A stretch of 20,287 bases of DNA from a virus, in IMG/VR virus record IMGVR_UViG_3300017951_003581, positions 1 through 20,287 of that record, one strand, 5' to 3'. Every line of letters begins with the position of its first letter. The first letter of the stretch is position 1. Positions 1,333 to 15,586 of this stretch are shown piece after piece. The notes under the pieces were generated by a model. It ran no database searches. It saw only the letters and a program-made list of their open reading frames with translations, and was not told the DNA's origin. Position numbers and translations under genes: made by a program.

Positions 1333-1785
1333 TCACGAGCTTTTTAGTGGCGTAAAATATTGAATCGGGAACCGCACGATCATCTCTATATCGCCACTGT
1401 CCCGAGTATTGCGGGTTCGACCACCGTACTCGAGCGGTATAGCAATAGTGTCGTTTAGCTTTTGAATATTCAGATATCGGATGTCTCGGTTCCGGTCAGC
1501 GACGACCAGCATCGTCCGCACTTTGAAGGTGCGATACAGCTCTTGCGTTTTCTCGAACTTGCTCGCGGAGAGCATCACGTCCGGGTAATCACCCCAAGCA
1601 AAAGACCGGCACTTTACCTCCACAAACGCATGAATTTCATTCGTTTCTGGCTTCCGAGCCGCGTAGTCTAGTATTTGGTGGTGAGACAATGGCTGAAGGT
1701 AGTATTGCCAAGCCCGCTCTAGCTCACGCTTCACATGCTCTTGGTTACGAATATCGCTCTCGCTCTCGTATATCGGTCGCCCCAT
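1333..1785 (-). CDS. Small PD-(D/E)XK-type nuclease
   Basis: A 150-residue protein on the minus strand, the only convincing gene on that strand. I start it at MGRPIYESES (cat at 1783-1785, with AAGG nine bases upstream) because the longer upstream extension is not protein-like. The core HHQILDYAARKP followed by AFVEVKCRSF gives an Asp (D40) and an E56-V-K58 pair preceded by a hydrophobic strand, the usual metal-binding arrangement of PD-(D/E)XK nucleases. A helix containing SKFEKTQELY and a strand TMLVVADRNRDIRYLNI follow, as in VRR-NUC or Hjc-like folds. It probably cuts or processes DNA. It could be a resolvase-like enzyme, an accessory 'moron' nuclease or a restriction-type enzyme; substrate unknown. 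It is convergent with the structural genes on its left. Confidence 0.75.
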   Translation of the reverse strand: MGRPIYESESDIRNQEHVKRELERAWQYYLQPLSHHQILDYAARKPETNEIHAFVEVKCRSFAWGDYPDVMLSASKFEKTQELYRTFKVRTMLVVADRNRDIRYLNIQKLNDTIAIPLEYGGRTRNTRDSGDIEMIVRFPIQYFTPLKSS

Positions 1786-1786
1786 C

Positions 1787-1900
1787 GTGAAATGCCTTAA
1801 TTGCGGAAACAAGGTTACAAACGGCAAGACACTTTGCGAAAAGTGCATCTGCCAGAAATGTAGGCGTATCAAAATTCTCTGCGATTGCAAGCGGAAATAG
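1787..1900 (+). CDS. Tiny cysteine-rich zinc-ribbon-like protein (GTG start)
   Basis: A 37-residue frame starting at GTG 1787 and reading MKCLNCGNKV, then LCEKCICQKCRR, then LCDCKRK. It has eight cysteines arranged as CxxC, CxxCxCxxC and CxC, plus many lysines and arginines. That pattern is typical of small zinc ribbons that bind nucleic acid or regulate transcription, and it is unlikely to arise by chance in a non-coding gap. It diverges from the nuclease gene, whose start lies just one base before this GTG. Against it: no clear Shine-Dalgarno element upstream, and an upstream region that overlaps the opposite-strand gene. A leaderless or coupled start is possible. Confidence 0.45.
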   Translation: MKCLNCGNKVTNGKTLCEKCICQKCRRIKILCDCKRK

Positions 1901-8291: not shown

Positions 8292-8959
8292 TGCACTGGC
8301 TAGACGTAACGGCGGACGCACAATCCGTCGAAACTCGGACAGAAATCCGGCTCGATAAGCCGATTTTTACAATGGCAATAATGCTCGACGACTTCGCAGT
8401 GCCGAGCTGGAATCGCATGTTAGCAATGCACCACATGACGAAAAACCGGCTGATAAGACTGACAGAGGCTAGAGTGCGTGAAGCACTTTGCGGGCATGAG
8501 TGGGCGGTTCCCATCATCAACATCGAATACGAGGCACTGACGAAGCCGACAAAGGGCAGGAAAGAGCTTGTTAAGCAGATGAGGCAGGAAAACCCAGCCG
8601 AGCACGAGTTTCTGAAAAAGTTTGTTGCTCGGGAGGAAGTGGTTAAAGCAATTACCGAGCGACCACGCGAGTTCGACGGCCCGCTGACGCTGAAGTTCAG
8701 TCATTGGAGAAAGCGGCTAATCGACGTGGACAATCTATGCGTTAAGCCACTAATCGACGCAATCGTGCGCACTGGACTGATTCCCGACGACGGGCCAAAA
8801 AACATCAAGCAAATTTGGCAAGCTCAGCACTCGACGAAAGAATTGGAGAATCACGACTTTGGAGCGGAGTTTGTGGTTTGCGAAATTGAGGAGTTTCAAG
8901 GGTTCTTCACCAACGTAAATAAGCCCGAGGACGAGGACGACGACGAGGAGCTTGCGTAG
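8291..8959 (+). CDS. RusA-like Holliday junction resolvase
   Basis: A 222-residue protein starting at 8291 in a TAATG overlap. It carries the RusA hallmark near the C-terminal half: RKRLIDVDNLCVKPLIDAIV (D145, D147, N148, K152), then RTGLIPDDGPKNIKQIW with D166 and D167. These acidic residues coordinate metal in RusA family endonucleases, which cut four-way junctions to resolve recombination intermediates and branched replicating DNA before packaging. It is longer than typical RusA (about 120 residues): the first 70 residues and a charged insertion (residues 84-125) are extra, and the C-terminus is a poly-acidic tail (EDEDDDEELA). It closes the recombination/replication operon and is followed by a terminator. 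Confidence 0.82.
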   Translation: MHWLDVTADAQSVETRTEIRLDKPIFTMAIMLDDFAVPSWNRMLAMHHMTKNRLIRLTEARVREALCGHEWAVPIINIEYEALTKPTKGRKELVKQMRQENPAEHEFLKKFVAREEVVKAITERPREFDGPLTLKFSHWRKRLIDVDNLCVKPLIDAIVRTGLIPDDGPKNIKQIWQAQHSTKELENHDFGAEFVVCEIEEFQGFFTNVNKPEDEDDDEELA

Positions 8960-9074: not shown

Positions 9075-9386
9075 ATGAAATTCGCAATCAGTGTATTAGC
9101 GGCAGCTATTGTTTTCGCGCTTGTCACGTCGGACAGCCCAGTTGACGCAGGCAGCAAAAAGCCAGCAGCAGGCGAGCCGACCATCATTCGCAGCAAAGCA
9201 AAAACAATTACGGTTCCACAGGTGGAAGTTCCTGAGATCACCGTTCAGGCAGTCTTGCCTCGCGTTTTGGCACGTCCCGTCCGCACCAAAAGCGTTACAA
9301 TCAATCGTGAGAGCAGCCGCCGGTTGCTACCGAGATTGCTACGTCGCAGGGCATTGGGATGCGAAATTCAATCATCGCAGCAATAA
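9075..9386 (+). CDS. Small exported-type protein
   Basis: A 103-residue protein with GGAGG nine bases before ATG 9075. Residues 1-25 form a signal peptide: a short basic start, the hydrophobic FAISVLAAAIVFALV, and a plausible cleavage after SPVDA. The rest is Lys/Val-rich (KAKTITVPQVEVPEITVQAV) and ends in a strongly basic stretch (RRLLPRLLRRR). No catalytic motif and no cysteine lipobox. First gene after the terminator, in a block of secreted or membrane proteins, so it could be a spanin-like or envelope-acting protein. The next gene begins inside its 3' end in another frame. Confidence 0.6.
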   Translation: MKFAISVLAAAIVFALVTSDSPVDAGSKKPAAGEPTIIRSKAKTITVPQVEVPEITVQAVLPRVLARPVRTKSVTINRESSRRLLPRLLRRRALGCEIQSSQQ

Positions 9387-9742
9387 CGCTTTTCAGCGTA
9401 AACAACGTCGAAGTACCGCAGCGGCCACGGGAGTTTTCCGTGGCTGTTGTCGTTTGTAGGGACGACACGGCGCAGCAAATAGCTCAGGCTCGTGCTGACT
9501 ACATGGCGGAGCACGGCTATCGAGGGCATCCACCTCGTAGCGTGGCAGATTGGAGAAACATTGAACAAGCTACGTTTGAAGGTGTAGGTTGGCGGTATCG
9601 AGTGGTGCAGCGAGAGCTAGTACCAACGTGCAGGCCGAGCGGCGTTAGTTCGGCATCGAGCGACGATTCGCGAGAGCTTCTCGCTGACGCATCAGCCAGC
9701 TCAGAGTATGGCAGTTTCCGGGTTAGGATTTGGGGAAAGTGA
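9359..9742 (+). CDS. Small protein with EGVGW signature (planctomycete-type family)
   Basis: A 127-residue protein overlapping the previous gene by 28 bases. The core AQARADYMAEHGYRGHPP, then ATFEGVGWRYR and VPTCRPSG, matches a pattern (K/R-A-x-x-M-A ... H ... E-G-V-G ...) that I recall in many small proteins of Planctomycetes genomes and their prophages, of unknown function. The first residues (RNSIIAAITLFS) are mildly hydrophobic. The C-terminus SEYGSFRVRIWGK ends in a beta-like strand. This is the best single hint to the host, from memory and not from a database. Its own stop overlaps the next start (ATGA style). Confidence 0.65.
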   Translation: MRNSIIAAITLFSVNNVEVPQRPREFSVAVVVCRDDTAQQIAQARADYMAEHGYRGHPPRSVADWRNIEQATFEGVGWRYRVVQRELVPTCRPSGVSSASSDDSRELLADASASSEYGSFRVRIWGK

Positions 9743-10008
9743 TGATTGAGAGAGCTTTACGTAAAAGCGACCGAGACAGGATACGCAAATATGCTCGCGA
9801 ACGGTGGGAGTCACGCTTGCGGCACGACGGGAAAATGAGTGCCGATACTGCGAGTTTGATACAGCAGGACGTGTTTCGTTACATTCGCAGAACGAAGGTG
9901 GGAGGCGGCATCTTTTCGGCGATTCTCATAAAAATCGCTATGGCGTTCGCGGCAGCACTCATCAGGAAATGGCTCGAAAATTGGTTGGAAGATAATGAAA
10001 GAAGATAG
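9742..10008 (+). CDS. Small basic protein with C-terminal hydrophobic helix
   Basis: An 88-residue protein whose ATG 9742 overlaps the preceding TGA. The N-terminal half is strongly basic and helical (ALRKSDRDRIRKYARERWES). Residues 54-73 (GGGIFSAILIKIAMAFAAAL) form a membrane or amphipathic helix, and a Trp-rich acidic end follows (RKWLENWLEDNERR). That suits a tail-anchored inner-membrane protein. It lies in the run of small membrane genes before the peptidase, so a role in lysis or membrane take-over is possible, but not established. Confidence 0.6.
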   Translation: MIERALRKSDRDRIRKYARERWESRLRHDGKMSADTASLIQQDVFRYIRRTKVGGGIFSAILIKIAMAFAAALIRKWLENWLEDNERR

Positions 10009-10384
10009 AGGATTCAGGTTTTTAGTGGGGTGTTTCGTAATCTTCACCGCATACAAGCTCTACACGGCTGGGTGGTTCGAGGCGGTAAGTGGGGACGACG
10101 AAGCCGTCGGTAATGCCGACGCAATCGCTATTGTCGTGCAGGCTATCGTGTCAGCGGTCGATCTTGTTGGTTACGTTGCGATTATGCTCGTAGCGGGAGC
10201 GTGGCCCACGGTTAAGTCGATCATTCAATCGCTTATCGGAATCATCAGCCCAGAGGAGCCAGAGCTGACAAATCGCGAAAAGCTGGAAAGTGGATTGCTT
10301 ACTCGAGATGAGGAGCGTGAGATCATTCGGCAGGTGATCGAGGAAGTTCGCAAAACACAAAGCCAAAAAAAACGGGGGCAATAA
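9995..10384 (+). CDS. Two-helix membrane protein
   Basis: A 129-residue protein overlapping the previous gene by 14 bases, with GGAAG upstream. Residues 8-26 (around FLVGCFVIFTAYKLY) and 42-70 (around AIAIVVQAIVSAVDLVGYVA and MLVAGAW) are hydrophobic; the C-terminal 45 residues are charged and helical (LTRDEEREIIRQVIEEVRKT). Two membrane helices with a charged cytoplasmic tail is compatible with a holin, but also with many other phage membrane proteins. The stop overlaps the next start (TAATG). Confidence 0.6.
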   Translation: MKEDRGFRFLVGCFVIFTAYKLYTAGWFEAVSGDDEAVGNADAIAIVVQAIVSAVDLVGYVAIMLVAGAWPTVKSIIQSLIGIISPEEPELTNREKLESGLLTRDEEREIIRQVIEEVRKTQSQKKRGQ

Positions 10385-10752
10385 TGAGCGTAGAGGCACA
10401 AAAAGCGCTGTTTTTGGCGGCTATGGCGCTTGTGGTCTATTTTGCATCGCAGCAACCAAAAAAGCAGGGAAAGCCGAAAGTGAACACGGAAGCCCCAGAC
10501 GCTATTGTGCTCGTGCCGCCCGGCGGCATTGCCGGTAGCCTACTGATCGACGAGTGGGCGAAGGAAAACGGCTACGAAGTTCGCAGGTACGACGACGGAG
10601 TATCGGTTGCCGACGCTGAACCGTGGGTTACAGAGCTTTACGACGCTACTAAGGGACACAGGCCAGCGGCAGCGGTCAGTGTAGACGGCAAGCTCACGAT
10701 CATCGAAGTGGATGACGACCTAATTGATAACATAAAAAAGGTAACGCAATGA
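10384..10752 (+). CDS. Membrane-anchored protein with a small soluble domain
   Basis: A 122-residue protein. Residues 7-22 (KALFLAAMALVVYFAS) form an N-terminal membrane anchor; a Lys-rich linker (QQPKKQGKPK) leads to a 90-residue alpha/beta domain containing IDEWAKENGYEVRRYDDG and DGKLTIIEVDDDLI. That domain has a thioredoxin- or glutaredoxin-like strand-helix feel (the segment GHRPAAAVSVDGKLTIIE resembles a thioredoxin-fold cis-Pro region), but there is no CxxC, so a redox role is unlikely. No family assigned. It precedes the peptidase gene by an ATGA overlap. Confidence 0.6.
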   Translation: MSVEAQKALFLAAMALVVYFASQQPKKQGKPKVNTEAPDAIVLVPPGGIAGSLLIDEWAKENGYEVRRYDDGVSVADAEPWVTELYDATKGHRPAAAVSVDGKLTIIEVDDDLIDNIKKVTQ

Positions 10753-11522
10753 GTTGGGACGAACCGAGCGACGACTTCGGGCTGATTGAGCGAGACTACG
10801 CATCGGAGCCAATCGGCACAGTCTGCGGTCAATGGGACGGCGGATACATCCCCCGGGAGCAGTGGCCCGAGCGAATCGCCGAAATCAATCGGCTCAAGCT
10901 ATCCCCGATTCTGTTCCACAAGTTCTACGGCGTCCCCGTTCTGAATCAGGACATCACGAAATATTGTTGGTGCTATTCGGTGGTCGCAGGCGTAATGAAC
11001 CGGCTCGCGTTTATGGGAATCAATGACCCAGTGCCACACCTCTCCGCTACAGCGGTTGCAGCCGTCGGGACAAATTTTAGGAATATCGGCGGTTATTGCA
11101 CTCGAGCGGTTCAATACATTCAGGATCAAGGCGGCGTTCCGAACGTGCAGGTATGGCCGAACGGCTACCATCTCGACCAGCTCTACAAAAACCGACCAGA
11201 GGTGGCAGACAGCAGGCGGAAAAACCAGCTCACCGAATTTATCGACTTCGGGCAGGACTTAGACGCGGCAATCTCCGCAATGCTCGGCGAAGAACCGATA
11301 CCCGTAACCTTTTCGCTTCCATGGTGGAGGCACGCGGTATGCGGACTCGAGGTGCTGGACACCGGCAAAGGTGATGCAAAATCGCTCGACAGGTACGGCA
11401 TCCGGTTTGTAAATTCTTATGGGCCAGAGTGGGAAAATGGGGGATTCGGCGAGTTTTACGGTAAACGTATGGAATCGTGGGAATTGGTGGGCATATCTCA
11501 CGTGAAGGCAAGGAAAGAATAA
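10749..11522 (+). CDS. Papain-like (C1) cysteine peptidase, candidate lysis enzyme
   Basis: A 257-residue protein with a complete papain-type active site: Q67 (oxyanion hole) in LNQDITKYCWCYSVV, C73 followed by W74 exactly six residues after the Gln, H195 in WWRHAVCGLEV, and N222 in IRFVNSYGPEWENGGFGEF, the counterpart of the NSWG-x-x-W motif. It should cleave peptide bonds. No signal peptide or long propeptide is present; the first 60 residues are a short N-terminal extension. It sits between membrane-protein genes, so a lysis enzyme acting on a protein-rich envelope is attractive. I recall similar proteins from planctomycete prophages. Alternatives are a tail-borne entry enzyme or a maturation protease. 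Catalytic type is firm, role is inferred. Confidence 0.85.
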   Translation: MSWDEPSDDFGLIERDYASEPIGTVCGQWDGGYIPREQWPERIAEINRLKLSPILFHKFYGVPVLNQDITKYCWCYSVVAGVMNRLAFMGINDPVPHLSATAVAAVGTNFRNIGGYCTRAVQYIQDQGGVPNVQVWPNGYHLDQLYKNRPEVADSRRKNQLTEFIDFGQDLDAAISAMLGEEPIPVTFSLPWWRHAVCGLEVLDTGKGDAKSLDRYGIRFVNSYGPEWENGGFGEFYGKRMESWELVGISHVKARKE

Positions 11523-11758
11523 TGCTCGGAGCGACCGACCCTACTCAGGTAACAATGCTACTCGGAGCTTGCGGAATACTCGGAACGGCGATTGCCGCTC
11601 TGTATCGGCAGCAGACTACGCATTTCAACAGTCTTGACGCGAAACTAAAACACGCGGAATCAATGCTTCAAGATTGTCAGGACGACCGATTAGCGATCTG
11701 GAAATTGCTCGCCAAGCAGCAAGGAGTTGAGGTCGAGGCGATTAGAGGGAAGCAATAA
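11522..11758 (+). CDS. Small holin-like membrane protein with coiled coil
   Basis: A 78-residue protein with the start at 11522 overlapping the peptidase stop (TAATG). Residues 9-28 (QVTMLLGACGILGTAIAALY) are one transmembrane helix; residues 33-65 are an amphipathic helix (HFNSLDAKLKHAESMLQDCQ) with coiled-coil spacing. One TM helix plus a coiled coil is found in class III-type holins, spanin-like proteins and similar phage membrane proteins next to an endolysin. It immediately follows the papain-like peptidase, which supports a two-part exit cassette. Function is a positional guess. Confidence 0.6.
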   Translation: MLGATDPTQVTMLLGACGILGTAIAALYRQQTTHFNSLDAKLKHAESMLQDCQDDRLAIWKLLAKQQGVEVEAIRGKQ

Positions 11759-13083
11759 TGCCGATTCCAAATAACGGATACATCAAGCTAAACAATACTA
11801 CAGGCAGCAGCACAACAGCTTCAGGCTGCGGAGCTTCAAATCTGTACGGCTCCAATAACGCAATGTTTAGTTCGGGAAGCAACACCATACAGGTGAGCGG
11901 AGGCGGAGGTATCAGCCCGGGGGACGTGCTTTGGGTAGATGCAAACGCCAGCAGCGGCGGCTCAACCAACTATCGAGAGTTTTTTGAGGTTGTTAGCGAA
12001 TCGGGCGGATACGTCACTACGGTTGAACAAACAACCAACTCAGCAATGGGCGTTAGCTGGGCGGTCGGCGGCACTCGCCGGACACTAGGCGATGTCGAAA
12101 ATCTTTTATCCAACCCTCTCCAAAACGGCGCGACTTCATTCGAGCTAGAAACGGATCAGCTTGTTTATTGGCAGACAAACCAAGTCGCGACCGGCTCAAC
12201 ATTTGCGTTCAAATCGGACGATGAGCTAGTTAAGCGAAAAATCACAATTTACGGCAATGATTTCTTTAAGCCGGGAAGCATCAATTACTGCGAAAACATA
12301 TTATTTAAGCCGTATAACCCAACTGGAATAACACTTGGTGGGGTAAACGGAGCATTTGGCGGTTACGGTGGAGATTGCATCATCAGTTGCTACCGTTGCG
12401 ATATTGGCGAGTTAAACGGCAATACTTTTGACGCGGTATGGGGTGGTTCGTTTGGAGGAGACGGAATACTGCGGTGCAATCAAACGCTAGTTTATCAATC
12501 GCCATTTGGAACACTTTGCGGAGAAGTTGACGCAAGCAATTCGATGTTCTACCAAGCTACGGGCTATTTATTTTCTACGGCGGGGCAACTATGGACAGCC
12601 GATGCGAGATTTCACAGTTGCGTGCTCGCTGTACCTTCCTACTGTTCCTACATCACAAACCCCTCGTATCTTTGCGAGAAAACCAGAATAGAGGATTGCG
12701 TCCTCCGTGGCGGAGTGAATGGTACTGACTATTGGGGTGCTGCGCTGACGCAGGGCGGAGACGATACTTTCCAATCGTTCACGAATAACGTCTTGGTGGA
12801 TTTCCCAGCTAACTCGATTTCGTACGGCAACAATATGAGCCGCACGAAGTATTACAACATGGCACTCGCGCCGACTGCTACGGAATTTCCTACTTTGTTG
12901 CCCGGCGATCCGTTCGTAGCCGGAGTGACCCTAGACTTCAATCTCAACAACAACACAGCGGGCGACCAACTGCGAGATCAAAGCGGCGACACGCTTATAA
13001 ACACGCTGATTTACCCCTACAGATATTTACTCGATCAATTACCGTCGGGCGGGGGTAATGTCATTCTTATTGAGGACAATTAA
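11758..13083 (+). CDS. Large Ser/Gly/Asn-rich adhesin-like phage protein
   Basis: A 441-residue protein that begins as the previous gene stops. The N-terminus is rich in Asn, Thr, Ser and Gly (LNNTTGSSTTASGCG, VSGGGGISPGDVLWV). The middle (about residues 180-330) carries short repeated beta-like segments with many cysteines (DCIISCYRCDIGEL, FHSCVLAVPSYCSYI, YLCEKTRIEDCVLRGG), the texture of a right-handed parallel beta-helix used by tail spikes and adhesins. No catalytic motif is seen. Next to the 620-residue fibre-like protein, it is likely a tail fibre or spike, or a virion decoration. No family recognised. Confidence 0.6.
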   Translation: MPIPNNGYIKLNNTTGSSTTASGCGASNLYGSNNAMFSSGSNTIQVSGGGGISPGDVLWVDANASSGGSTNYREFFEVVSESGGYVTTVEQTTNSAMGVSWAVGGTRRTLGDVENLLSNPLQNGATSFELETDQLVYWQTNQVATGSTFAFKSDDELVKRKITIYGNDFFKPGSINYCENILFKPYNPTGITLGGVNGAFGGYGGDCIISCYRCDIGELNGNTFDAVWGGSFGGDGILRCNQTLVYQSPFGTLCGEVDASNSMFYQATGYLFSTAGQLWTADARFHSCVLAVPSYCSYITNPSYLCEKTRIEDCVLRGGVNGTDYWGAALTQGGDDTFQSFTNNVLVDFPANSISYGNNMSRTKYYNMALAPTATEFPTLLPGDPFVAGVTLDFNLNNNTAGDQLRDQSGDTLINTLIYPYRYLLDQLPSGGGNVILIEDN

Positions 13084-14946
13084 ATGGCGTTCGACCAAAC
13101 GCTCCTACGCGGCACGACGAGCAAAATCATCGAAATTGTCATGCGTGACGCGACGACCGGGCAGGGATTAACAGGCGTGAACGCCGTGAATCTTACAGCG
13201 TATTATGTTCTTGAAGGCGGGACAGCGACGGCGCACACGCAGCCAGCAAACGGGCTACCGGGGGCGACGTATAATGCAGGAGTGTGGGCGGAAGTCGATT
13301 CCACCAACATGCCCGGCGTGTATCAATTTCATCTCGACAACGCTCTGTTCAGCGGAGCACAGGACTCAGCAACGCTCTACCTGACTTACACGGGAGCACT
13401 AAATAAGATCATCCGTTTCTGCGTGCTCGATGCAGACTTACGCGATGCAACCAGCCTTGGACTTACACGGCTCGATGACACTATTAGCAGCCGCAGCACT
13501 TTAGCGGCGACAGACATTATTACAGGGCCAGCTATCGACACAATTCTTCTGAACGGAAAGGGAGCCGTAGAGAGAATTGGCGCAATGTCGGATGCGGCGG
13601 GCAATGCAATGAACGCACCACTAAATTTCTCCACTTTACTGATCGGCTCGACGACCGCGGGAGCAATCGACAGAGTGACCTTGGTTGATACTTGTACGGC
13701 CAACAGCGATATGCGTGGGACAAACGGAGCAAACACTGTAGCACCGGACAACAGCACCATCGCGACGATAGACACTAACGTCGCTAGCATCATCGCGGGG
13801 ACTTCTCCGGTCACAGCGAATGACGTTACGGTTGCAAGTTTCAACGCAGCAGCGTTAGAGCAGTTTGCAACGCTAAACACGACAGCAGTGTCAGCGGATA
13901 TTGTGGCAGGCAGCGTAATTCAGCTAATGCAGGACGAGGTTACGCTCGTTGACGCGACTCAAGCGGGATTGGCAAAGTTCGCCAACACTGACACGGGTGA
14001 GACGGCAGCAGCTTCCGGCTCAGTTGCAGCACTTGCTCAAGGCAGCGCGGGCGGCAACGTAACCGTTGGGGATATCACGCAAACGGCACTGGCGAAGTTC
14101 GCTAACACCGACACAGGTGAAACAACAGCGGCTACCGGATCGGTCGCAGCTCTGTCACAGGGCAGCGGTGGCGGTGGCTCAGTGCAAGTCGGCGGATTCG
14201 ACACGGCAGCACTGCTCGAGCTAGTCAACAACAACACCGGAGCAACGGCAGCCGCAGCAGGATCAGTTGCAGCTTTATCAAAAGCCGACGTTTCTGCATT
14301 GGCAACATCAACAAACGTCAGCGATTCGACTAGCACGATACAAACCGACATCAGCAATTTAAACGATCTGACCGCAACGCAAGTCGAGAACGCAGTGTGG
14401 GACGCACAATCGAGTGCTCATACGGCCAGCGGGACAATGGGTAAGTTGCTCGACACCATCAAAAAGAGCAATCTATCGGTAGATGGAACAGTTGCAGGCA
14501 CGCCGACATCGACGCAATTCGACTCAGGAATTACCGGGTACGGCACAGGTGCGTTCAACGAGCAGATGCTCGTATTTCTCACCGGAAACTGCACCGGACA
14601 GTCTCGAGGGATTCTCTCGTTTGACGCAACTAACGGCACTTTCACGTTCGAGGAGCCGTTTGTCGGGTCAATTCTCAACGGTGACGAGTTTGTGATTCTC
14701 CCGTATCACGTTCACCCAATCAGCGAAATTCAAGCTGGGTTAGCAACCACCAGCGACCTCGCACCGCTAGCGACCTCGGCGGAGCTTGCGCCGCTCGCAA
14801 CGTCGGCAGAGCTTGCGGGCTTAGCTCAATCAAGCGAGCTAGTGCCGTTGGCTAGGACAACCGACCTTGCGACGGTCATCAAAACGGGGCAAAGCTACAC
14901 AGCGACCGCTCAGTCCGGCGATACAATCGACGTAACTCTCTCGTAG
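13084..14946 (+). CDS. Tail-fibre-like protein with N-terminal beta domain and internal repeats
   Basis: A 620-residue protein. Residues 1-120 form an Ig-like or baseplate-protein-like beta domain (LLRGTTSKIIEIVMRDATTG, then GVYQFHLDNALFSGAQDSAT), the kind of fold used to attach fibres to a baseplate. The middle is Ala/Thr/Asp-rich with about 40-residue repeats at 292-401. Later comes VENAVWDAQSSAHTASGTMG, a motif I recall in many phage fibre-like proteins. Residues 554-598 are five tandem 9-residue repeats, and the end is GQSYTATAQSGDTIDVTLS. It is probably trimeric and elongated. The role as fibre or baseplate-associated protein is inferred from domain texture and repeats. Confidence 0.7.
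   Translation: MAFDQTLLRGTTSKIIEIVMRDATTGQGLTGVNAVNLTAYYVLEGGTATAHTQPANGLPGATYNAGVWAEVDSTNMPGVYQFHLDNALFSGAQDSATLYLTYTGALNKIIRFCVLDADLRDATSLGLTRLDDTISSRSTLAATDIITGPAIDTILLNGKGAVERIGAMSDAAGNAMNAPLNFSTLLIGSTTAGAIDRVTLVDTCTANSDMRGTNGANTVAPDNSTIATIDTNVASIIAGTSPVTANDVTVASFNAAALEQFATLNTTAVSADIVAGSVIQLMQDEVTLVDATQAGLAKFANTDTGETAAASGSVAALAQGSAGGNVTVGDITQTALAKFANTDTGETTAATGSVAALSQGSGGGGSVQVGGFDTAALLELVNNNTGATAAAAGSVAALSKADVSALATSTNVSDSTSTIQTDISNLNDLTATQVENAVWDAQSSAHTASGTMGKLLDTIKKSNLSVDGTVAGTPTSTQFDSGITGYGTGAFNEQMLVFLTGNCTGQSRGILSFDATNGTFTFEEPFVGSILNGDEFVILPYHVHPISEIQAGLATTSDLAPLATSAELAPLATSAELAGLAQSSELVPLARTTDLATVIKTGQSYTATAQSGDTIDVTLS
13957..14286 (+). repeat. Three coding repeats of about 120-126 bases in the fibre gene
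   Basis: Units begin near 13957, 14077 and 14203. The shared protein core is LAKFANTDTGETAAASGSV, then AALAQGSAGG in the first unit; the second is nearly the same, and the third is diverged (LELVNNNTGATAAAAGSVAA). The first two are still similar at DNA level, so recent duplication or recombination between units is plausible. Confidence 0.8.
14743..14877 (+). repeat. Five tandem 27-base repeats encoding 9-residue units
   Basis: Exact period of 27 bases: ATTSDLAPL, ATSAELAPL, ATSAELAGL, AQSSELVPL and ARTTDLATV. Units two and three are nearly identical in DNA. Conserved positions are A1, T/S2-3, E/D5, L6 and L9, suggesting a regular helical or stem repeat near the fibre tip. Confidence 0.85.
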
Positions 14947-14953
14947 GCGTGAC

Positions 14954-15586
14954 ATGGCACAGCAAAACAGTTTCGCGACCTTTTTCGGGGCAATTTACCC
15001 GGCAGAGTCCGACGTGGTGAACACAGCGCCGCAGTACGGGGATGCGATCAATACGTTGGCCGGAACGCTTCCACCGTCGGAAGGTGTAGTGCCAGCACCG
15101 ACAGACGTTAGAGCAGGCGTGACCGTCGGATTTACCGTCGGGAACATGACACTACCTACTCAGCCGCAAGTCCAACAGGGCGTGACTTTTGGAGCAAACG
15201 GCAATGAATTCACAGGGACTTTGTACGTAAACGTGATACCAACACCACCAGCAGCAGATATGTGTCGGCTCAAGATTCAGGTAGCGCTGAATGGAGAAGC
15301 CGTGGACGAAGCTCTCGTAAAATGCACGCTATGCGAAGCAAACAGCGTCGTGAACAACAACATTGATCCGTCAGTGGTTCGCAACGAAGTCGCGACCGTG
15401 CAGGGATATGCAGAGCTGGATCTTTACCGGCAAGTAGCGTTCACTCGAGGAACCGGCGACTATATGATTCAGGTAGAGCACAACGGCCAGATCCTTGCCA
15501 GCATTAAATCAGCAATGCCAGATCAGGCGGAAGTGTTCCTATCCGAATTGGTAACGTCGTCGAATCCAGATTACACAGGGGGCTAG
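14954..15586 (+). CDS. Phage tail/virion protein of unknown class
   Basis: A 210-residue protein seven bases after the fibre gene stop. N-terminal segment MAQQNSFATFFGAIYPAESD, then a repeat-like pair: DVRAGVTVGFTVGNMTLPTQ and VQQGVTFGANGNEFTGTLYV. These G-V-T-x-G turns suggest a virion beta-sandwich. The C-terminal half contains LKIQVALNGEAVDEALVKCT and DLYRQVAFTRGTGDYMIQVE, again beta-rich. The composition is that of a structural protein. I do not recognise a named family; position directly before the tail-chaperone gene suggests a tail or fibre-associated part. Confidence 0.6.
   Translation: MAQQNSFATFFGAIYPAESDVVNTAPQYGDAINTLAGTLPPSEGVVPAPTDVRAGVTVGFTVGNMTLPTQPQVQQGVTFGANGNEFTGTLYVNVIPTPPAADMCRLKIQVALNGEAVDEALVKCTLCEANSVVNNNIDPSVVRNEVATVQGYAELDLYRQVAFTRGTGDYMIQVEHNGQILASIKSAMPDQAEVFLSELVTSSNPDYTGG

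Follow-up and report, generated by a model that had tools for sequence, protein, structure and literature searches.

The window analysed here corresponds to a 20,287-base virus record. On its plus strand it carries a 257 aa papain-type peptidase ORF with an ATG start, embedded in a compact gene array with the order secA, secB, TM3, TM4, TM5, peptidase and TM7, which runs on into tail-fibre-like genes (Table 1). Hydropathy analysis found hydrophobic segments in TM3, TM4, TM5 and TM7, in agreement with the original prediction, which had placed the peptidase among small membrane proteins. The genes are tightly interlocked: the end of TM5 overlaps the start of the peptidase gene by 4 bp, an overlap of stop and start present in 9/9 contigs, and the peptidase stop overlaps the TM7 start in seven of the eight contigs that reach TM7, with a 5-base gap in L010. 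No terminator-like site was found on the plus strand between positions 8700 and 15100, which makes late co-transcription of the cassette with the tail fibres plausible. Promoter-like sites in the same region did not exceed those in shuffled sequences.

Table 1. Genes and catalytic codons of the peptidase locus, in positions of the 20,287-base window.
Feature	Position	Strand	Basis
secA: small, strongly basic exported protein with a hydrophobic signal at the N-terminus	9075..9386	+	hydropathy, charge, tblastn
secB: small protein, conserved H, FEGVGW and TCRPSG motifs	9359..9742	+	alignment A7, 7 members
TM3: 88 aa, hydrophobic helix at the C-terminus; TTG at 9730 as alternative start	9742..10008	+	hydropathy
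TM4: 129 aa with two hydrophobic segments; size and layout resemble a holin	9995..10384	+	alignment A12 (10 members), hydropathy
TM5: 122 aa, N-terminal membrane anchor and conserved soluble domain	10384..10752	+	alignment A11, 9 members
papain-type (C1) cysteine peptidase	10749..11522	+	ORF, Pfam, PDB profile, alignment
codon of Q67 (oxyanion-hole glutamine)	10947..10949	+	invariant 9/9
codon of C73 (nucleophile, context YCW)	10965..10967	+	invariant 9/9
codon of H195 (context W[RK]HA)	11331..11333	+	invariant 9/9
codon of N222 (context FVNSYG)	11412..11414	+	invariant 9/9
TM7: 78 aa, one hydrophobic segment, coiled-coil-like tail; holin candidate	11522..11758	+	alignment A13, 8 members
variable tail-fibre-like gene directly 3' of the cassette	11758..13083	+	by position
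tail-fibre-like protein, short stretch common with lineage B	13084..14946	+	blastp, 53-68% over 40-43 aa
conserved protein 3' of the fibre genes, common with lineage B	14954..15586	+	blastp, 46-58% over 93-133 aa

The window peptidase was aligned with eight homologues sharing 42-66% identity with it (loci L003, L010, L011, L012, L013, L095, L105 and L114). The complete Q67-C73-H195-N222 set that had been read from the window alone was borne out, all four residues being invariant in the nine sequences. They follow the order Q, C, H, N with a distance of six residues between Q and C, as in papain, which places the peptidase in family C1. Its closest sequence relatives belong to the papain family, cathepsin chains being reached at E 1.1e-5 in a single-sequence search. 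The nine-member profile A9 retrieved 38 PDB sequences at E <= 0.001, all recognised as papain-family, three of them, named Protease II and FBSB, as presumed members. Against the Pfam family PF00112 the window protein scored 15.1 bits, under the cut-off of 20.7, which was passed by the orthologues from L010 (24.9), L095 (24.1), L105 (25.0) and L114 (23.8), these five of the nine members being those with scores among the matches listed. The other Pfam match of the peptidases was TDP-43_N (best E 0.056, two members). Since no peptidoglycan-hydrolase domain thus appears among the Pfam matches of the homologues, we class the peptidase by its likely role instead of placing it in a muralytic family. 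Its gene is under purifying selection, with dN/dS of 0.07-0.16 in five pairs, values that are rough for the three pairs with dS > 1.3. An N-terminal hydrophobic segment was absent from 9/9 members in the hydropathy scan.

AlphaFold models were weak (mean pLDDT 43.9 for the window protein and 51.1 for the L105 homologue), and the papain fold is therefore taken from sequence. When the low-confidence L105 model was compared with the PDB, Foldseek placed papain-family chains at ranks 1-17 with E values of 0.013 or worse, and in VIA-align all 50 of the 50 rows listed were entries that we take, as far as recognised, to be papain-family, with Z scores of 4.9-6.2 that lie under the trust level of the tool. 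Among viral models Foldseek gave no match to the L105 model at E <= 0.001. Several structural alignments of this model begin in the N-terminal segment and extend into pro-regions, so the N-terminal part of the peptidase may possibly be a short built-in inhibitory segment.

Among the membrane genes, TM3 is present in L003 and L010-L013 and, by look, in L112, and no counterpart was seen in L095, L105 or L114. The soluble domain of TM5 has, by eye, an alternating strand-helix pattern of thioredoxin-like appearance. Profile searches of the PDB gave nothing significant for TM5 (best E 0.095) or TM4. None of the TM genes passed the cut-off of a holin profile; the L012 homologue of TM7 was the one member with a match to Phage_holin_10, a weak one at E 0.019 with 15.4 bits versus a cut-off of 27. 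The mature part of the window secA has a net charge of +11 with the cleavage site guessed by eye, and charges of +6 to +12 were obtained in 8/8 proteins examined in the same manner (L011 and L013 left out). Members from L003, L010 and L012 were identified by tblastn and those from L095, L105, L112 and L114 by place and make-up only, the window secA giving no blastp match to L095, L105 or L114 at E <= 1e-4. Near its C-terminal part secA is arginine-rich.

The window is 99.96% identical over 19,545 bases to G001 (IMGVR_UViG_3300022934_000049), a viral contig of 43,083 bases, and its first 2,052 bases match G001 at 100%. A direct repeat of 140 bases, 99.3% identical, lies at the ends of G001, which thus probably represents a complete genome, about 42.9 kb long, in which a classical lysin located elsewhere could be looked for. 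Exact terminal repeats of 144, 99 and 99 bases were found in G003, G004 and G005. A second lineage, here lineage B, comprises the 33-34 kb contigs G192, G193 and G194, which hold L095, L105 and L114; G194 has an exact terminal repeat of 127 bases, and G192 and G193 have no terminal repeat. Hence G003, G004, G005 and G194 are, like G001, probably complete genomes. Outside these contigs no homologue of the window peptidase was found in 50,697 phage records at E <= 1, the L095 peptidase gave one chance-level match there (E 6), and the L105 protein had no homologue in 72,556 plasmids. Neither did secB match in the phage records (E <= 0.01) or the plasmids, nor the G001 capsid protein in the phage records at E <= 0.01.

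Some further genes of these phages were recorded in passing. Beside its head genes G001 encodes a very large protein of 966 aa with a HELGH zinc-peptidase-like motif (L007:6065-8962, minus strand) and another very large protein whose gene is split by the contig ends (L007:9011-11467 and L006:3-2651, both minus strand). An ART-PolyVal match was listed for one G001 ORF, the protein not being mapped. A 185-aa ORF at window positions 1333-1890 (minus strand) lies in reverse orientation between the head-tail genes and the early genes; the PDDEXK_14 match of one G001 ORF, the protein again not being mapped, probably stems from it. For G193 and G194 (L151, L105, L153, L114, L154) TET-associated glycosyltransferase, sulfotransferase, DNA methyltransferase and ParB-like families were listed; the glycosyltransferase and its companion families suggest that lineage B has modified DNA bases.

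Linkage of the cassette genes was assessed in scans of 2.9 million viral contigs, whose reach is limited to fairly close relatives. The TM5 scan returned only peptidase contigs (9/9), as did the TM7 scan (8/8), and nine of the ten contigs found with secB contain the peptidase, the tenth, L112, stopping short of it. Furthermore, 127 ORFs of at least 80 aa from G192, G193 and G194 were compared with the G001 proteins at E <= 1e-4. Matches comprised secB, TM4, TM5, the peptidase, a fibre stretch of 40-43 aa, the homologue of the 14954-15586 protein and one large protein with 23-24% identity. TM5 was matched in L095 and L105, and in L114, where a longer antisense ORF masks it, it was recovered in alignment A11. 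TM7 is too short for the lineage B ORF list; that it is shared is shown by alignment A13 and the TM7 scan. The terminase, the capsid protein (both chosen by their matches) and two portal candidates of lineage B (chosen by size) gave no blastp match below E 0.1 to the terminase, portal and capsid of G001. Pfam likewise assigned lambda-type portal and terminase families to lineage B versus Portal_Mu and Terminase_6 to G001 (for G001 among the matches listed). A cassette common to lineages with dissimilar terminases, capsids and putative portals implies that it moves as a unit between dissimilar phages, as would be expected of a lysis or host-interaction module and not of a capsid protease.

This bears directly on the idea that the peptidase matures the capsid. 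Phages commonly encode prohead maturation proteases, and a phage protease might be explained in this way. However, the cassette is common to lineages whose capsid proteins and terminases lack similarity by blastp, and the peptidase gene lies far from the head genes, which leaves hardly any probability for a prohead protease. Virion maturation, one of the competing roles named with the original prediction, is accordingly unlikely as far as the capsid is concerned.

A role of the peptidase in the virion or at entry, in which it would process tail fibres or ride with the tail and open the envelope from outside, deserves more weight. The gene precedes tail-fibre-like genes with no plus-strand terminator-like site in between, and parts of the fibre module, namely the 40-43 aa stretch and the 14954-15586 homologue, travel between the lineages together with the cassette. 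With regard to the fibre-like nature of the gene at 11758-13083, two G193/G194 ORFs gave Laminin_G_3 matches in Pfam (proteins not mapped). Against an entry function, the peptidase is interlocked with membrane-protein genes and shows no fusion to a tail protein, the contigs recovered with TM5 and TM7 are peptidase contigs only, and variation is greater in the fibre genes than in the peptidase, short stretches alone of the 13084-14946 protein being matched. We therefore consider entry unlikely, though it is the alternative role of the enzyme to which we give the most credence.

The original prediction had noted the lack of any muramidase, amidase or glucosaminidase motif in the window, and had pointed to the rest of the genome as the place to seek a classical endolysin. 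At HMM sensitivity, and among the matches listed, the first statement holds, and no classical endolysin was recognised with Pfam or PHROG families among the matches listed for the 43-kb G001. ORF-by-ORF family scans took in G001, G003-G005, G193 and G194, with G006 and G192 outside them. For G001 they comprised 49 ORF entries, two of which are the halves of the gene split by the contig ends. Peptidoglycan hydrolases were absent among the best 25 of 36 Pfam families (E <= 0.02), which extend to E 0.0013, and lysins among the best 25 of 62 PHROGs (E <= 0.01). When 29 G001 ORFs, with TM7 taken from a later start, were searched at relaxed thresholds, neither the 17 Pfam families found at E <= 0.1 included a lysin nor the 19 PHROG families found at E <= 0.05 a lysis family; for the other 20 ORFs the Pfam matches considered extend to E 0.0013. 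The weak G001 matches to Peptidase_M91 (E 0.048) and Glyco_H_20C_C (E 0.083) were not taken as lysins.

In G003-G005, the scans covered 93 of the 132 ORFs with 85 aa or more, together with TM7 of L012; the 39 left out were putative terminase, portal, capsid, recombination, replication and HTH genes and antisense ORFs, placed by position or by likeness to G001. These scans gave 17 Pfam families at E <= 0.02 without a lysin, Peptidase_C1 being found in three members, and 11 PHROG families at E <= 0.005, none of them of lysis. For G193 and G194, 81 of the 84 ORFs and, in addition, three small cassette genes yielded 24 Pfam families without a lysin at E <= 0.01, and a lysin was absent among the best 25 of 69 PHROGs.

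Moreover, six-frame searches with PF05838, PF01510, PF05257, PF01464 and PF09374 at E <= 1 matched in 0/8 cassette genomes, and PF00959, run on G001 alone, gave no match. Akkermansia phage Chantilly, whose endolysin is annotated, served as control: PF09374 recovered this enzyme at 6.2e-11, whereas it was missed by PF05838 (GH108), which had been expected to find it, and by PF01510, PF05257 and PF01464, all control matches of PF05838 lying under the cut-off. Because four of the five families miss this enzyme, a diverged lysin can escape single-family searches, and absence by HMM does not prove absence of a lysin. When 24 loci from the cassette genomes were searched by tblastn with the Chantilly endolysin itself, nothing significant was matched (best E 1.5).

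A diverged wall enzyme might also be sought within the cassette, most probably in secB, with the peptidase reduced to an accessory that activates a lysis protein or degrades a host protein. secB contains the residues H31, E48, C65, R66 and D84, invariant in 7/7 sequences of alignment A7, and a further conserved motif, FRVRIWG. It accompanies the peptidase in all nine contigs and occurs in L112 as well, and an export-like N-terminus exceeded the hydropathy cut-off in four of six members tested, the window secB being below it. Three members searched against Pfam at E <= 1 returned Caa3_CtaG at E 0.22 as the lone match, and the secB profile found nothing significant in the PDB (best E 1.5). secB is perhaps a new family and possibly an enzyme. 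The lack of a better family match and the fact that the peptidase is the sole recognised hydrolase of the cassette speak against secB as the wall enzyme, which we judge slightly less probable still than an entry function of the peptidase.

The absence of a recognised lysin elsewhere among the ORFs scanned also argues against a protease for counter-defence or host take-over that lies among membrane genes by chance. In favour of such a protease, papain-like peptidases act on many kinds of substrate (PMC10318531). The conserved coupling to membrane and tail-fibre-like genes, on the other hand, points to an enzyme made late and at the membrane, and we regard a take-over protease as quite improbable.

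Regarding the host, purine-rich Shine-Dalgarno-like stretches were seen by eye at several gene starts, which fits a bacterium. The planctomycete host envisaged earlier is not supported by the data. That secA- and secB-like proteins may be typical of planctomycetes was given no weight in judging the host. Nor is a protein-rich planctomycete wall supported, as planctomycetes are described as possessing a peptidoglycan wall (PMC4432640), and a host of this group would in itself be no explanation for a protease. Of two scans of genome contigs, the first gave no match and the second matched only a phage contig in the MAG Gammaproteobacteria bacterium MED690 (G007); likewise, among 185 genomes of the G007 class the secB profile matched G007 alone, on the phage contig. 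This contig (L106; NZGG01000012.1, 44,680 bases, equal in length and range to L012/G005) is a phage genome with 99-base terminal repeats. Sampled G007 contigs have a GC content of about 0.43 versus 0.54 for the phage, and the class member L129 is nearer to it in composition. Since GC and tetranucleotide use of the sampled contigs are not specially close to those of the phage, the binning was dropped as a host clue. The best match of the lineage B capsid protein was that of Akkermansia phage Chantilly (26.5%, E 1e-13), which may be a weak hint to the host.

Taken together, these data suggest a lysis cassette in which the C1 enzyme occupies the slot of the endolysin as the catalytic member of a mobile phage module, a reading to which we assign a probability of roughly 0.6. 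In several uncultured phages, which fall into two or more unrelated lineages, the protease gene is locked between membrane genes, and among the genomes searched no known cell-wall-degrading enzyme was recognised; the protease may therefore be what breaks the host cell open. What stands of the lysis role first proposed for it are the catalytic residues, the membrane-gene setting and the lack of a recognised peptidoglycan hydrolase, while the planctomycete host and the protein-rich wall lack support. In the lysis cassette, the peptidase would be co-translated with the flanking membrane proteins, TM5 upstream and TM7 downstream, and, carrying no export signal, would accumulate in the cytoplasm. 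TM4, TM7 or both would act as the holin that opens the inner membrane and frees the peptidase, which could then cut peptide bonds of the envelope, either in the peptide part of peptidoglycan or in structural envelope proteins. The strongly basic, exported secA and probably secB may contribute by weakening the outer layers. In this scheme the holin function, the freeing of the enzyme, its substrate and the lytic event are all inferred. By analogy, secA could, as an idea only, be an outer-membrane agent similar to disruptin, described as an antimicrobial-peptide-like disruptor of the outer membrane (PMC12819732). A more radical version, in which a holin-released papain-type protease and a basic exported peptide dismantle the envelope proteins without any peptidoglycan hydrolase, and unrelated phages that infect one host group exchange the cassette as a whole, is a speculative extension that we consider doubtful.

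Compared with known enzymes, the window peptidase resembles papain family C1A (PF00112; cathepsins, ficin and bacterial xylellain) in its Q-C-H-N order, GG motif and CW context. It differs from these peptidases in being phage-encoded beside membrane genes, in showing neither a signal peptide nor a full pro-domain, and in the short conserved N-terminal segment of its family with an RDY/RNY...P.G motif. Papain-like cysteine enzymes are already used in phage lysis as the CHAP and LysA N5 endolysin domains (PMC10318531, PMC3314691). CHAP enzymes, of which none was matched in the eight cassette genomes (0/8), are described as cutting the peptide part of peptidoglycan (PMC10318531), and N5 (C39-like) papain-family peptidase domains as parts of the modular LysA endolysins of mycobacteriophages (PMC3314691), whereas the window protein is a single C1-type domain. 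The pseudomurein endoisopeptidases PeiW and PeiP (C71) are likewise papain-like and lyse methanogen cells through the peptide link of the wall, as outlined in PMC10318531, but they belong to another peptidase family and act on a pseudomurein wall. In Gordonia phage BetterKatz a separate cysteine-protease-like protein, gp29, lies in the lysis cassette beside holin candidates; this phage is described as having a glycoside-hydrolase endolysin, gp30, as well (PMC4982276), and no such partner was recognised for the window peptidase. For the metagenomic cysteine protease PCP, hydrolysis of cell walls is reported, with a drop in turbidity when it acts on a suspension of them, but PCP is bacterial, has four domains including peptidoglycan-binding and SH3 domains, and lies outside a phage cassette (PMC5146660). 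A Vibrio phage 'papain' paper, considered as a C1 precedent, was set aside, its relevant part concerning NlpC/P60 (PMC10196503). Among the open-access literature matches listed there was no precedent for a C1-type phage lysin. Papain-fold endolysins as such are known; the present case is set apart by a stand-alone C1-type enzyme, without a recognised partner lysin, in a mobile conserved cassette.

The combination of a protease and a pore protein as an exit system recalls the proposal of 2015 that archaeal viruses leave the cell by means of a holin and an S-layer protease, put forward there as a hypothesis with enzymes unknown (PMC4456609), while the Shine-Dalgarno-like starts found here fit a bacterial host. 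Almost all bacterial viruses are described in the same source as exiting through a holin and a wall-degrading endolysin (PMC4456609). If the lysis role of the peptidase is true, the cassette would represent either a new endolysin chemistry or lysis through envelope proteolysis.
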